Below are positions 6,560 through 32,493 of a stretch of DNA of 56,399 bases, one piece after another. This DNA comes from Candidatus Methanomethylophilaceae archaeon (GTDB lineage Archaea; Thermoplasmatota; Thermoplasmata; Methanomassiliicoccales; Methanomethylophilaceae): the NCBI GenBank assembly GCA_017540825.1, contig JAFYAH010000048.1:1-56399 (forward strand), given 5' to 3'. Position numbers and translations under genes: made by a program. Numbering within the stretch: position 1 is the stretch's first letter; each line of letters starts with the position of its first letter. Below the pieces are notes generated by a model. That model saw only the letters and a program-made list of their open reading frames with translations. It was not told the origin of the DNA and made no database searches.

Positions 6560-7495
6560 TTAAAGCATATCGGAAAGCGGAGTCTTGCCGTCGGCGACGC
6601 TGTACCAGCGGTCGGCCATGGCTCTGTTGGTGCGTACCCCCTCTCCTTTTAGGTACATGTTCCCAAGGAGCACCTGGGCGCCTCTGTGGCCTTTCCTGGC
6701 GGCAGACTCGAGGAACCTGAACGCAGAGGCGGTGTCCTTCTCGCATCCGCATCCTGACCTGTACATCTGCCCCAGTATGAACATGGCTTCGACGTTGTAG
6801 TTCAAGGCCGCCTTCTCTATCCATCTGAACGCTGTGGTGGCGTTGGGGGACATCACTCCCTCTCCTTTGAGGTACATGAGGCCCACCCGGATCTGCGCGC
6901 GGGTATCCCCCAGTGCGTTGGCCGAGTCCTTCAAGCACTTTATGGCCTAGTTCGGCGTCTGCTTTACGCCGTGGCCATCGAGGTACATCACTCCCAGGTA
7001 GTAAAGGGCGTTTAGGTCTCCCCCTTCGTAGGACGCGCTCATATGCTTGAATGCCTTCTCGTAGTCCTTCGCGACCCCGAGGCCGTGATAGTAGATCATC
7101 CCCAGGAAGTACTGAGCCACAGGGGTGTTGACCTGCTCGCGGTCGCTGAGTATGTCTAAGGCTTCCTTGTAGCGGCTGCTGTCTTTGTTGAGGATAAAGA
7201 GTCTCGCCCTCTCCAGCGGATCCTTCTTTTCCAGGGGCGACTCCATGCGTTCTCTTATCGTTCCTACAGATAAAACGTTTATGTTGTCATGGTCCAGGCC
7301 ATAGTTTTGATGATAACGAGGCATGGGAACAGCGTTCGAAAGGCTTTCCGGGAGCAGCCGGGACTTGCTTATGCTAACGTCTGCCATCGCTTCTGCTGAC
7401 GCAGCCAAAGAGCACCTAGACGAGACGGCGCAAGTTGTCGGCAGGGCGCAGCTCTCTGCGATTTTTCCGATACGACCTGTCATAGCGATTGCCAT
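6560..7495 (-). CDS. Sel1-repeat protein with in-frame TAG
   Basis: 311 residues if the TAG at 6947-6949 (codon 183) is read through. Both sides are the same frame and the repeat register continues without loss: GHGVKQTPN, TAG, AIKCLKDSA. The TAG falls where Sel1 repeats usually have the Lys of a D..KA motif. Sel1 units include FLGMIYYHGLGVAKDYEKAF, YLGVMYLDGHGVKQTPN, VGLMYLKGEGV, LGQMYRSGCG and LGNMYLKGEGVRTN. Such solenoids mediate protein-protein contacts; a role is not predictable. A TATA box at 7518-7526 supports a leaderless start at ATG 7495, though the first 57 residues are not repeat-like and ATG 7324 is an alternative. Either a pyrrolysine or amber read-through protein, or a nonsense-mutated pseudogene. 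Confidence 0.7.
6947..6949 (-). other. in-frame amber codon in Sel1 gene
   Basis: TAG on the minus strand inside an otherwise continuous Sel1-repeat frame. No start codon with a plausible ribosome site follows at once, so the downstream half would be untranslated unless the amber codon is decoded. Confidence 0.75.
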
Positions 7496-7517
7496 GTTAC
7501 GATACTAGGCACGGTCA

Positions 7518-7526
7518 GTATATAAT
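7518..7526 (-). promoter_or_regulatory. TATA box of the minus-strand Sel1 gene
   Basis: ATTATATAC on the minus strand, about 27 nt upstream of the ATG at 7495, consistent with a leaderless transcript. Confidence 0.45.
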
Positions 7527-7660
7527 GCTGAGAAGGGGAGGGGTGGCCGAAAGTGGCAGGATGCCGCCGGTCTCCGAAGACCTCTGGGGGCCATGACAGA
7601 GACTCGTACCTGTATAACCGTAAGTCAGAGTTCTAATATCTGTTTCAATATGCGCGATTC

Positions 7661-9136
7661 ATGTCCCAACGCACGATTTCCCAAGACGGCCAATACATGC
7701 CGTCCCGCGTTCTTATGGATAGCTGTTCCGTAGAGTACGACCTCAAAGGGGCCGCTGCAGAATCGGAGCGCGGCTCGGGGGAATCGATTCCCGACGCGCA
7801 GTACCTGTACGCCCTGTTCCTTTATACAGGGTCAGCGGGCGTCGCCAAGGACAAGAAGACTGCGGAGGAGCTGTTCAAGCTGGCTTCTGCCGGAGGATCC
7901 AAGGAGGCAGCGATCGTGGCGTCCGAGCTCTCCAGGAGCCCGGAGGACGTCATGGACGGTCTGCTGGCGCTCAGATTCAAAGGCGAGCAGAGGGACTTGG
8001 AAGCATGCGCGAAGCTGTTCTCCATGTACGACAACGGGACTTCGGAAGTCAGCAAGAGCCATGCCGAGGCTGTAAGATGGTACACCGTATGCGCCGAAGA
8101 GGACGACGCCCAGGCTCAGAACACGATAGGGTACATGTACCTAAAGGGCAAAGGGATCCCCAAGGACGAGGAGAAGGCGCTTTACTGGCTTCAGAAGGCC
8201 GCGGAGAACGGAAACGCGACCGCCATGTACAGGCTAGGGGAAGTCTATCAACAGGGGACCTTGGACATCGAGCCGAACATGGAGCGGGCCATGGGATGGT
8301 ATTCCCGCGCCTCCGACGCCGGGAGCATGGACGCGCAGTTCACCTTGGGATGCCTGTGCTCTGTTCCAAGGACCAAGGGATTCGACATGAGAAAGGCCAA
8401 CGCCTATTTCGAGAAGGCCGCCGAGCAGGGGCATGCGGAGGCGCAGTACCAGATCGGCATGTCCTACGCCAACGGAGACGGGATTAAAAGGGACCCCGCC
8501 AAGGCCCTGGAATGGCTCGAGAAGTCCTGCGAGAACGGATACCAGCAGGCCATGGTGGATCTGGCCAACATGCTGTACGAGGGACAGGTCCTGCCCAGGG
8601 ATGTGGCCAAGGCTGCGCACTGGTTCACGGTCGCGGCCGAGAAGTGCAACGGATACGCCCAGTACGCGCTGGCCTGCATGTACGCCAACGGATTGTACTT
8701 CGAGAAGAGCGACGAGATGGCCTTCAAGTGGTTCAAGGAAGCGGCCGAGGCCAGCGAGGTCAACTCCCAATACTGCCTGGGGCTGTTCTACCGGGACGGG
8801 CGCGCCGTCGAGAGGAACGAGGAGATGGCGGCCGTCTGGTTCGACCAGGCGGCAGACCAGGGGCATCCTTACGCGATGGCCGACCTGGGGATAATGAAGA
8901 TCATGGGCCGCGGGGTCGAGCAGGACGTGGAGGAGGGAATCGGGCTCCTGAACATGTCTGCCGAGCGCGGGAACCCCGAGGCGGAGTTCTATCTAGGGAA
9001 GATCTACTACGACGGGGAATATGTGGACAAGGACCTGAACCGCTCCAAGAAGCACTTCGCCAAGGCTGCGAAGATGGGGGATCCGGACGCCGCCGCCATG
9101 CTTGAGGTCATCAAGAAGAACAGGTGGCGCAGATGA
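7661..9136 (+). CDS. Sel1-repeat protein
   Basis: 491 residues built almost wholly of Sel1 (TPR-like) repeats, for example IGYMYLKGKGIPKDEEKALY, YQIGMSYANGDGIKRDPAKA and FYLGKIYYDGEYVDKDLNRS. No signal peptide or membrane helix is visible, so it is a cytosolic scaffold-type protein of unknown partner. A TATA-like TTCTAATATC at 7631-7640 lies 25 nt before the ATG, supporting this start. It is the first gene of an apparent operon: its TGA overlaps the next Sel1 ATG (ATGA), and the run continues into the CoA-ligase-like gene. It is divergent from the Sel1 gene at 6560-7495. Confidence 0.88.
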   Translation: MSQRTISQDGQYMPSRVLMDSCSVEYDLKGAAAESERGSGESIPDAQYLYALFLYTGSAGVAKDKKTAEELFKLASAGGSKEAAIVASELSRSPEDVMDGLLALRFKGEQRDLEACAKLFSMYDNGTSEVSKSHAEAVRWYTVCAEEDDAQAQNTIGYMYLKGKGIPKDEEKALYWLQKAAENGNATAMYRLGEVYQQGTLDIEPNMERAMGWYSRASDAGSMDAQFTLGCLCSVPRTKGFDMRKANAYFEKAAEQGHAEAQYQIGMSYANGDGIKRDPAKALEWLEKSCENGYQQAMVDLANMLYEGQVLPRDVAKAAHWFTVAAEKCNGYAQYALACMYANGLYFEKSDEMAFKWFKEAAEASEVNSQYCLGLFYRDGRAVERNEEMAAVWFDQAADQGHPYAMADLGIMKIMGRGVEQDVEEGIGLLNMSAERGNPEAEFYLGKIYYDGEYVDKDLNRSKKHFAKAAKMGDPDAAAMLEVIKKNRWRR

Positions 9137-10957
9137 AGGACCCCATATTCCGCGCCGCCGACTCCGGGGACCCTTATGCCTGTCTCGGGGTCGCTTACTA
9201 CTACCATCAGGGAAAGGAGGTCGACTTCGACATAGGCTCCGCGATGACCTGGTACGAGCGCGCTGCCGCCAGGGGATGCCCGAGGGCCCACTGGGAGCTA
9301 GCGAAGCTGTACATAGGCGGGGAAGAGGTCCCCAGGAGCGAGTCGCTCTACATAGACCACCTGGTCTCGGCATCGGACATGGGCAACATGGACGCCCAGT
9401 ACGCCCTCGCGTGCGAGTACCTCTGGGGAAGGCTTCTCGAGAAGAACGAGGAAAAGGCCCTGGCCCTCTACAAGAAGGCTGCGGAGGTGGGGCATGTTCG
9501 TTCCAAGTTCATGGTCGGATACATGATCCAGCAAGGACTATCGGACGAAGGGACGAAAGGGGACGCCGAGATGTGGTTCTCGTCCGTCGGGGTATCGGGA
9601 GACGCAGACACCTTTCTGGAGATAGGCATGGACTACGAGTACGGCCTGGACGGCGTCCAGCCCAACCTGATGGAGGCCATCCGCTGGTACCAGTACGGGG
9701 CGGACATGGGGCATCAGAAGTGCATGATATGCTACAGCTCGGCTGTCTCCGCTCTTGCGGGAAAAGGCCAGGAGGGGTACGGGGAGCGCATGAAGAAGCT
9801 CAGGAACACGGACGTCCAGAGGGAGACCGACATGAGGGAGCGCCTTCTGCACATGGCGAACGAGTTCCTCTCGGAAGGGGACGAGAAGGCCGCCTACGAG
9901 CATTACATGGAGTCTGCGAAGCTGGGGGACGCCGACGGCATGTTCGCGGTGGCGATGATGTACCACCAGGGCATATACGTGAGGCGCAACGACAGGAAAG
10001 CCGTCGAGGTCCTCATGCGCGCCGCCTCGGCGGGCTCGTGCGACGCCCAGTTCTTCCTCGGGAGGCTATACGACAGCGACGAGTACCCCCGCGACGAGAC
10101 CCAGGCGATAAAGTACTACGCCCAGGCGGCCGCCAACGGGTTCCTTGCCGCGTTCTACTATCTCGAGCGCTTCGTGGACCATCCTGAAGTGTACGTCCGC
10201 AGGGTAAGGGGGCATCGAGACGTCCTTCGAGACCGTCATGAAGGCCGCACGCGAGGGGGATCCTGACGCGCAGGTCGCGATGGGGTACATGTTCTTCAAG
10301 GGCGACGGCGTGGGCCAGGACCGCAGGGAGGCGGCCAGGTGGTTCGGGCTGGCGGCAGACCAAGGGAACGCCGAGGCGCTGTGCAACCTGGGCCATATGA
10401 GGGCTCACGGCGAAGGCATCCGCATGGACCTGGACAAGGCCCTGGAGCTGTACAGGAAGTCCGCAGAGCTGGGCTATCCGAGGGCGATGTTCAACCTGGG
10501 CTTCATGTACACCGACGTGGTCGGGGTGGAGCAGGACTGGGCGGAGGGGTACAGGTGGTATTCCAAAGCCGCAGAGGCGGGGAACCTCCTGGCCCTCTAC
10601 CGCGTGGCGGTGATGGACGAGGAGGGCCGCGGGGTGCCAGCAGACCTCGGCAAGGCCGCCGCGGGGTACCGCGAATGCCTCGATCACGGGCACCCCAAGG
10701 CTGGATACCGCTTGGGGATGATGCATCTGGAAGGCCGCGGCGTGCCGAAGAACCCGGGCAAGGCGGTCAGCTGCTTCTCGAAGGCCGCCGGCCTCGGCTC
10801 TGACGAAGCGATGCTGATGCTGGGGAGGCTGTCCCTGACGGGAGAGGGGATGGTCCTCAGCAGGCGCAACGCCGAGAAATGGCTCAGGATGGCCGCAGGG
10901 CGCGGGAACAAGGAAGCATCAGAGGTACTGGAGAGCATGAGGAGCGGGTCAGCATGA
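9133..10957 (+). pseudogene. Sel1-repeat gene interrupted by one frameshift
   Basis: Two overlapping Sel1 frames form one protein of about 607 residues. Frame one runs from ATG 9133 (overlapping the previous TGA) through FLGRLYDSDEYPRDETQA to about 10210. The second is open from 10208 and continues IETSFETVMKAAREGDPDAQ, VAMGYMFFKGDGVGQD and further repeats to TGA 10957. The switch is in AAGGGGGC at 10206-10213; removing one G restores a single frame, and a TAA at 10205 marks the upstream limit of the second frame. Explanations: an assembly error in the G5 run, a real indel, or +1 programmed frameshifting. The next gene starts inside its stop (ATGA). Confidence 0.75.
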
Positions 10958-27762: not shown

Positions 27763-28944
27763 TTAATGAGTGGCCGTGTCGGCCTCCTTTTCCTCCAGCA
27801 TCTTCTGGCGTTTGCTGTAGAATCTGTAGCAGACGATGTCGCGCAGGTTCCTGGCGAAGCAGTTGGCGTACAGGAGCCCGGAGACGACCGCGATCGCGCC
27901 CAGGGGGACCAGGTACTGCATGTAGTAGCCCAGTATGGTCTCTATGCTCTTGCCGTAGTATACGGAGATGACGAAGGTCAGGAAGAACACCCCGAGCATA
28001 GCGTACCAGGTGAACAGGCGCTTCTTGGCTCCTGTCCAGAGGTAGTAGGGCCTCGGGGCGGAGGACAGGACCCTTGCGCCCGTGCTCTTCACGGCCTGCC
28101 AGGGGATCACCAAGGCGGGAAGGAACACCGACAGCAGGACCATTATCCTTATGGTGTTGTACTGGGGGACCGCGTCGAGGACGATCGGGTTCAGGAACAG
28201 CGCAGAGCACACCATCACGCCCATGGAGAAGGCGTAGACCGTGAGCTCTATGAACGAGCGGAGGTCGAAGACATGGCTGTCCGGGACAGGGTCCATTTCC
28301 ACCTCCTTGACGTCCAGCACGTCCGGGACCATGAAGAACGAGGCGGCAGGCCCTCTTTCCCCCTCTGCGGCGCTCCTCTCTATCGACAGGATGGCCCCTG
28401 GGAGGTACTTGCGGATCATGGCCGATATGGTGGTCAGGACCCCCACGGACGACAGCAGGAGGACCAGTATCGTCAGCAGCATGTCGCTGAAGAGCACGAT
28501 CTCGTCCACGTCCCCGGGTATGAACGGCTTCAGCGAGGACGCTCCCCTCAGAAGCACCATGGCTCCGGCCCCTGTGACGTAGAACCACATGACCGCTCCG
28601 GCGAATATCACGAACCCGACCAGGAACCACAGGGGGAAGGGCCCGGAGTCGAGGCGATAGAGCGCCCACGTGCCCAGGAGGGCGAAGGCGGTCACGAACA
28701 CGATGCAGATGTCGTCCAGTATCTTCCAAGGCAGGAAGTCGCCTCTGGATATGACGAGCAAGGCCGAGACGACGACGCAGCAGGCGACGAACCAGGGGAA
28801 CGCGCGGACTATTGCCCTGTCCCTGTCCTCGGACCGCGGGTTGATCCTCGAGGCCCCGCCGAACACGGTGGCCGCATGGTCCAGCTTGTCGTTTATGGAT
28901 TCGATGTCGACTTTTTTAAGAACGGCATCCCTCGGCATGAGCAT
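27763..28944 (-). CDS. polytopic membrane protein
   Basis: 393 residues, not recognised. About eight hydrophobic segments are spread through it (AFPWFVACCVVVSALLVI, ICIVFVTAFALLGTWALY, PLWFLVGFVIFAGAVMWFYV, MLLTILVLLLSSVGVLTTI and three or four near the C-terminus). A central loop of about 50 residues is charged. TATA-like sequence at about 28960-28970 supports a leaderless start at ATG 28944. A TPR gene follows. Function unknown. Confidence 0.72.
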   Translation of the reverse strand: MLMPRDAVLKKVDIESINDKLDHAATVFGGASRINPRSEDRDRAIVRAFPWFVACCVVVSALLVISRGDFLPWKILDDICIVFVTAFALLGTWALYRLDSGPFPLWFLVGFVIFAGAVMWFYVTGAGAMVLLRGASSLKPFIPGDVDEIVLFSDMLLTILVLLLSSVGVLTTISAMIRKYLPGAILSIERSAAEGERGPAASFFMVPDVLDVKEVEMDPVPDSHVFDLRSFIELTVYAFSMGVMVCSALFLNPIVLDAVPQYNTIRIMVLLSVFLPALVIPWQAVKSTGARVLSSAPRPYYLWTGAKKRLFTWYAMLGVFFLTFVISVYYGKSIETILGYYMQYLVPLGAIAVVSGLLYANCFARNLRDIVCYRFYSKRQKMLEEKEADTATH

Positions 28945-30216: not shown

Positions 30217-32493
30217 GTGCCGGTCAGAAAAGAGGAGAAGGAATCGCAGGAGGATCTGCTTGTGGGCGCCGAAAGCTCTGCTGTCGGCATCGACATATGG
30301 GGCGTGTGCGTGGACCGCGACGTCTTCAGGGTGATGGACGACTTCCGCGGCTCGGAAGGACGCCTGAAGATCAACAACTACTTCAAGGCCTGCTCCTTCG
30401 TATCGCAGTTCTCGAAGCGCAACGGCCCGACGATCAGCGTGTCGGACATGCCTCTCCTGAGATCGGAGAAGATGTCCTTCAACACCGGGATAACCAAGAA
30501 GACCGCCTTGGCAGATTACAACAAGACCATAATCAGGCAGCTTCGCCATTCGGGGTCCGAGTGGCTGCTGATAGACGGCAGGGCGGACGCCTACGGGATA
30601 AGCAGGATCCAGTACTCAGACGGGTCGTGCGACTACCTTTCCAGCAAGACGCAGCACAGGTTCGGGATCAGCGAGATCCTATGGAGCAAGGGCATCGAGA
30701 ACACCACGGAAGACATAGGGCTGGACTATCCCGAGGAGGAGTACCAGAGATGCTTCAAGAGGCTGGTCAAGTTCGTGAAGGAGAGGTACGGGAACAACAT
30801 CATACTCAACTGCGCCTTCGACTCGACCTTCTTCCTGGACATGGACGGGCTGATCCACGAGACGTCCAACGAGAGGATAGTCGCCCGCAACGCGTTCCTG
30901 GCGAGGTTCAACCTCGAGTTCGTCCGCGCCACCGGGTGCTACTGCATCAAATGCCCCATGTACCAGATGGCCGACGCGTACCACAGGTGGGGGCTCTACA
31001 CGGTCCACTACATAGAGGAGCACTACATGTACATAGACCGCTGCATCCAGGCGATAATCGACGGCGGAGACGGCGTCAGGGACCGTCTGGAGGACCTGTT
31101 CCTGGAGTACAGCGCGCTTTTCGCCTCCGTCAGGTCCGGCGAGGTCCTCAGCGTGCGCAACGGCATCGAAAGGTTCCAGAATCTCAAAGAAGAAGAGAGG
31201 CGCGACGAAGCCATGGAGATCCTCGACCAGATGATCCGCCAGGGCCTGCCCCAGGCCAAGGTGGAGCTGGCCAAGCTATACGGCTACGGGGTGTTCGTGG
31301 AGAAGGACCTGTCCAGAGCGGAGAGCCTGATCAACGAGGCCATCGAGGACGGCATGAGGTCTTCCGCCAGCGCGCTTTTCGACATCTATTGGAACGACGG
31401 CGATCCCGGAAACTACGAGAAGATGATAAAGGCCGTGGAGCCCGGCGTCGAAGAGGGCGACAGGGGCGCCATCCTGCGCATGGGCAGGGCCTGCTGCTAG
31501 GGAGTGGGCGTGGAGAAGGACCTGGGGAAGGCGCTGGAATACATGCGGCAGGTGGCCAGGTCGAACCGCGAGGCCGACATCCGCGACCAGCTCTTCGACC
31601 TCCTGCTCGAGATCGACGACCCCGACCTGTACCAGGAGATGGTGGATTCGGTCTACAGGCTGGCCATGAACAAGAGCCCCAACCCCCAGGCCCGCTACGG
31701 CCTCGCCTAGGTCCTCGGCAAGGGGCTGGAGAAGGACGTCGACGGAGGCATAGGGTGCATGCTAGAGGCCATGGGCAACGGGTCTTCCGACGCCGCCTGC
31801 CTCCTCTACGACCTGCTGTCCGACAAAGGGCCCTCCTCGACGATGTCGCTGGTCATGGAGGGGCTGGAGCGGTTCTCTGAAGAAGGGTCGACTGCGGCCA
31901 TGGTTCGTCTGGGAGACGCCTTGAGCCGCGGGGCCTTGGCGGAGAAGGACCTGGAGAGGGCCCGCCAGCTGGTCGAAGCCGCCTACGAGTCGAAGGCTCC
32001 GGATTCCGGCCGCTGCCTGATGAGGATACTGTGGGCCGTCGGCACCGATGACGCGCTCTCGGAGCTGGCTGCCGTGGCCGAGGAGGGCGCATCGAAAGGG
32101 GATGCCGTGTCGTCGCTCTGGCTCGGCAGGGTGCTCATGAGGGGAAAGGGCGTCCCGATGGACCTGGAGAGGGCGGAAGCGCATCTGAGGCAGGCGTTCG
32201 ACGCCAGAGTCCCAGGCGCGAGGCTGCAGCTGATGAACCTGCTCTGGAAGATAAGGACCAGGTCTTCCTGCTCGGAGATGGTCAGGATATCCGCGCCCTT
32301 GATAAGCAAGGAGAACGACCGCGCCCTGTTCCTCGTCGGGAACGCATATTACTACGGAATAGGAGTGAGGAAGGACGTCAAGAAGGCCGTCGCGCTGTTC
32401 AGGAAGGCCGAGAGCAGGAATCCCGAGCTGGGCGCGAAGCTCAAGCCGCTCTACGGCAAAGCGGGCGTCTCCAAAGGCAAGCTCCCCATGTAA
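30217..32493 (+). CDS. DUF6270-like / Sel1-repeat fusion with two in-frame TAGs
   Basis: 758 residues if TAG codons 428 (31498-31500) and 498 (31708-31710) are decoded; all three segments share one frame. GTG start with GAGGTGA at 30205-30211. The N-terminal ~300 residues look like the DUF6270 family (opening DIWGVCVDRDVFRVMDDF, then SQFSKRNGPTISV and LLIDGRADAYGI; later NIILNCAFDSTFFLD), an SGNH-hydrolase-like domain seen in surface-polysaccharide loci. Residues ~350-758 are Sel1 repeats. The first TAG lies in MGRACC-TAG-GVGVEKDLGKA, the second in YGLA-TAG-VLGKGLEKD where the repeat normally has Tyr. No other damage is visible in 2.3 kb, favouring a functional amber-containing gene over a pseudogene. 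Confidence 0.72.
31498..31500 (+). other. first in-frame amber codon of DUF6270-like/Sel1 gene
   Basis: TAG immediately before the GVGVEKD turn of a Sel1 repeat, with the frame continuing. Confidence 0.8.
31708..31710 (+). other. second in-frame amber codon of DUF6270-like/Sel1 gene
   Basis: TAG at the usually aromatic position of a Sel1 repeat (YGLA before, VLGKGLEKD after); the same frame runs on to TAA 32491-32493. Confidence 0.8.

Follow-up and report, generated by a model that had tools for sequence, protein, structure and literature searches.

The locus

The window, that is, the whole stretch of 56,399 nucleotides that was analysed, is one entire contig of a 2.37-Mb assembly of a Candidatus Methanomethylophilaceae archaeon (73 contigs), a methane producer of gut type in the order Methanomassiliicoccales. 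Between an HMG-CoA reductase gene on one side and pheT on the other, it carries a gene for a protein with a DUF6270 domain followed by Sel1 repeats (Table 1). The gene begins with a GTG codon immediately 3' of an in-frame TGA, with GAGGTGAG close upstream, and ends with a TAA codon. The sole breaks in its frame are two TAG codons, at codons 428 and 498, and there is no frameshift over its entire length, just as the initial annotation had described. Chance does not account for the open frame, since relatives are full length through both TAG sites.

The 400-residue N-terminal extension that the HMG-CoA reductase would have in its longest reading is probably spurious, lying opposite a minus-strand ORF (27763-28944); searches of the extension against Pfam and NCBIfam returned no match. 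A row of neighbouring Sel1-repeat frames lies elsewhere in the window (7661-10957, plus strand), and at least 150 Sel1 repeat matches were counted in the source genome.

Table 1. Features of the DUF6270-Sel1 gene in window coordinates
Feature	Position	Strand	Basis
Whole DUF6270-Sel1 gene, 758 codons and TAA, two in-frame TAG	30217..32493	+	Frame, Pfam, full-length relatives
DUF6270 domain, residues 27-265, weakly SGNH-hydrolase-like fold	30295..31011	+	Pfam, AlphaFold, Foldseek
Sel1-type helical solenoid, about residues 287-754	31075..32478	+	Pfam, AlphaFold, Foldseek
TAG codon 428, private to the source genome	31498..31500	+	Codon comparison with relatives
TAG codon 498, TAG in 4/4 close family members	31708..31710	+	Codon comparison with relatives

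Domains and predicted structure

Both domains score above their gathering cut-offs, DUF6270 (PF19786) with 55.2 against 27.5 bits (E=1.2e-14, profile positions 1-222 of 222) and Sel1 (PF08238) with 69.1 against 30.7 bits (E=3e-19); what sets the protein apart from the two Pfam families is its UAG-encoded residues. The pairing of the two domains, which had been called unusual, turns out not to be so, as the family has it in several genera and genomes.

In the AlphaFold model, for which both TAGs were entered as lysine (mean pLDDT 88), an alpha/beta domain is followed by a long helical solenoid, and this solenoid matches Sel1 proteins in Foldseek. Residue 428 is the last of helix 416-428; residue 498 lies within helix 488-500, at a position where the Sel1 consensus in the alignment is tyrosine. 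The initial annotation had placed both TAGs at loop or variable positions. This is correct only insofar as residue 428 is variable, but even this residue ends a helix, and residue 498 is inside one and is encoded by TAG in all four genes.

Searched alone, the N-terminal domain finds mostly SGNH-type lipases, esterases and acylhydrolases as its top Foldseek matches, which are weak (best E 3e-3, TM 0.3-0.5, probability up to 0.99). The catalytic serine of SGNH/GDSL enzymes would sit in a GDS-like motif that follows strand 1, where no conserved serine is present. Instead, an invariant cysteine (Cys31, motif G-x-C) directly follows strand 1, at the position of the SGNH nucleophilic serine. In the DUF6270 motif GxCxSRD, the serine is replaced by aspartate in the window protein and by asparagine in the copy from genome G018 (see below). 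The domain may be a Cys-dependent esterase or acyltransferase, and we do not claim it as a member of the SGNH/GDSL group. All matches from a sequence search against solved structures were to Sel1 or other helical-repeat proteins, with none for the DUF6270 part, and a viral structure library yielded no useful match.

Pyrrolysine machinery and UAG as a sense codon

PylS exceeds its curated cut-off in the source genome (G000:C68), and ARAGORN places a tRNA-Pyl with CUA anticodon beside pylS. By their order and sequence, we take the surrounding frames to be pylB, pylC, pylD and mtmC-mtmB, the last with an in-frame TAG; contig C59 has a partial trimethylamine methyltransferase gene, also with one TAG. 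The genome thus encodes the synthetase, the tRNA and pyrrolysine biosynthesis, and the presence of tRNA-Pyl(CUA), pylSBCD and a TAG-containing mtmB argues that UAG is decoded as pyrrolysine. The 450 kb sampled out of the 2.37-Mb genome revealed no second tRNA that reads amber. PylS is also found in the genomes of the three relatives described below. G006, a genome of the same genus that is 82% complete, has no PylS above the cut-off, yet one of its DUF6270-Sel1 genes contains an in-frame TAG; the contig with PylS is probably absent from that assembly.

A hexamer coding model, applied to the 450-kb sample, shows open coding sequence downstream of 19 of the 30 TAGs that have coding sequence upstream, compared with 3/32 for TAA and 18/253 for TGA (together 21/285; Fisher P=2e-12). 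Some of the few TAA and TGA cases arise where the next gene happens to lie in the same frame, as with the TAA of the DUF6270-Sel1 gene, which pheT follows. When stretches fetched for Sel1 or synthetase matches are left aside, the proportions are 13/22 for TAG and 17/212 for TAA and TGA. Among terminal-like stops, about 4% are TAG (8/192), and the sample holds about 20 in-frame TAG sites. From this difference in continuation, the two ambers of the DUF6270-Sel1 gene are very probably sense codons within a genome-wide pattern.

Relatives and selection

Among 102 genomes of the family that were searched, three hold a close relative of the gene, each full length and with 45-55% protein identity to that of the window. 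The G018 copy lies in the same gene order as the window copy (HMG-CoA reductase, DUF6270-Sel1 gene, pheT), and the G029 and G026 copies share a location that is different from this one; the four close family members are effectively two pairs. A scan of genome contigs with a single query sequence found no copy, and a scan with the alignment found two, both already known from the family search. The source genome itself has DUF6270-Sel1 paralogues at L034 5790-7601 and L083 3093-5156, each interrupted by two or three in-frame TAGs at positions different from those of the window gene.

The gene evolves fast, with 55% identity to the G018 copy compared with 65-97% for most neighbouring genes. Downstream of TAG498, the G029-G026 pair has a dN/dS of 0.21 and the window-G018 pair one of 0.47; for the remaining pairs dS is nearly saturated and the ratio less reliable. 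The frame is thus conserved and under purifying selection across the UAG sites, the outcome that the initial annotation had named as a check on its proposal that the TAGs are read through rather than products of neutral decay. That proposal, which did not name pyrrolysine, is strongly supported by the Pyl cassette, the genome-wide excess of TAG, the purifying selection and the conservation of TAG498. On these sequence grounds, we are highly confident that the gene is not a pseudogene and that its UAG codons are decoded as pyrrolysine.

The two sites differ in their history. Lysine, tyrosine or TAG had been anticipated at both in orthologues. Codon 428 is TAC, TAC and TTC in the relatives (Tyr, Tyr, Phe) and TAG in none, whereas codon 498 is TAG in the window gene and in all three relatives, with synonymous sites near saturation. 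Of 101 fourfold-degenerate sites, just 13 are the same in all four genes, from which the chance that an unconstrained codon retains all three bases is roughly 0.002. On the other hand, 229 of 738 residues (31% of columns) are invariant across the four proteins, so that ordinary protein constraint could keep codon 498 if pyrrolysine counts as a normal residue.

Other in-frame TAGs of the genome provide a baseline, with protein names that stem from our reading of the sequences and not from database assignment. In mtmB and its homologues, TAG is kept in 8/8. Elsewhere the TAG corresponds to lysine in all four relatives of an RPA-like protein, again to lysine for an integrase, to Tyr, His, His and Cys in a nucleotidyltransferase, and to Gln in the best match, with other residues elsewhere, in another Sel1 protein. 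The window has a further Sel1 gene (6563-7624, minus strand) with a TAG, at codon 226 of the stop-to-stop frame; as four of four relatives have lysine there, this TAG looks private and neutral. A NADAR-like protein (L082 8642-9124, minus strand) has an in-frame TAG in common with two G018 copies at 90-95% identity, and is another candidate for a conserved pyrrolysine site outside the methyltransferases. Retention at codon 498 (3/3) compared with private sites (0/17) gives P=0.0009, or P=0.006 with NADAR counted, values that are indicative only, since the sequences are related and the baseline sites were hand-picked. In this small survey, site 498 resembles the mtmB site and is unlike the private TAGs; only the NADAR-like site, with one close relative, behaves similarly.

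Sel1 genes have in-frame TAGs more often than others (4 of about 8 compared with about 7 of roughly 290, P=6e-5, in the less biased sample and from rough gene counts). The reason may be that a rapidly evolving repeat family tolerates them, or else that pyrrolysine is put to use.

Discussion

To our knowledge, nearly all pyrrolysine of known role sits in methylamine methyltransferases, and other cases are thought to be neutral. Kivenson et al. (Science, 2025) reportedly argue that all TAG codons of some archaea serve for pyrrolysine. For Ca. Methanomethylophilus alvus, in which TAG makes up 1.6% of stops, 16 non-methyltransferase pyrrolysine proteins have been predicted, one of them a Sel-1 protein (AGI86303.1), and half of the 16 have homologues without TAG (Borrel 2014, PMC4153887). 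Genome-wide in-frame ambers and a Sel1 candidate have thus been published, and the kind of finding is known. AGI86303.1 and the window protein come from the same archaeal order, and share a Sel1 assignment, an in-frame TAG, a full Pyl cassette and rare TAG stops. However, AGI86303.1 has 389 residues, the likeness is one of description, and no cross-species conservation of its TAG is given (Borrel 2014). Conservation of a single in-frame TAG across species is a property of MtmB, MtbB and MttB (8/8 for mtmB), but the role of pyrrolysine is known in those enzymes, to which the window protein is unrelated. What is new is that one amber codon of a non-methyltransferase family is conserved across species, and that codons 428 and 498 contrast with each other.

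Together, our data suggest a model that we strongly favour. Ribosomes would read both UAGs with tRNA-Pyl(CUA) and produce a single DUF6270-Sel1 protein of 758 residues. Codon 428 would be a recent and probably neutral Tyr-to-Pyl change, of a kind that an organism able to read UAG tolerates. The TAG at codon 498 would be older and kept by selection, in which case Pyl498 probably contributes to the solenoid, as a packing, binding or reactive residue.

We give about an even chance to the idea that both pyrrolysines are neutral passengers, with Tyr-to-UAG changes tolerated in a cell whose decoding of UAG is constitutive, and codon 498 arising in the ancestor of the family and persisting by ordinary constraint or chance. 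It fits the clearly private codon 428, the private nature of the majority of the other in-frame TAGs tested and the 31% of columns that are invariant anyway, as well as the proposal that efficient UAG suppression lets in-frame ambers become stable in M. alvus (Borrel 2014, PMC4153887). However, tyrosine, the Sel1 consensus at 498, is one base away and has been taken in none of four lineages, with neutral retention at about 0.002.

It is unlikely that UAG498 serves as a regulated stop, such that a shortage of charged tRNA-Pyl would yield a product of 427 or 497 residues and an ample supply of methylamines the long form. The conservation of TAG498 would agree with such a role, and the few terminal-like stops that are UAG suggest that termination there may be possible. 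However, the additional UAG at codon 428 occurs in one species only, and no RNA structure or recoding element beyond shuffles, nor any other signal, was found near the TAGs in the window or the relatives, although sequence cannot separate regulated from constitutive reading.

A decaying pseudogene or an assembly error, with translation stopping at residue 427, might be suspected from the fast evolution of the gene and the fragmented assembly, but is hardly credible and already contradicted by the data: TAG alone interrupts a frame without frameshift, the genome has an overall excess of TAGs followed by coding sequence, TAG498 is identical in separately assembled genomes, and the downstream part is under purifying selection.

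Returning to the favoured model of two decoded ambers, codon 498 makes a good candidate for a pyrrolysine kept in place by selection in a protein other than the methylamine methyltransferases. The further claim that Pyl498 is functionally required in this family, and hence that selection maintains a use of pyrrolysine beyond methylamine metabolism, we would advance only tentatively. Standard annotation would split the DUF6270-Sel1 gene, and probably many others of the lineage, into fragments. With its conserved UAG, the fast-evolving Sel1 protein offers a concrete test case for other cellular uses of pyrrolysine.
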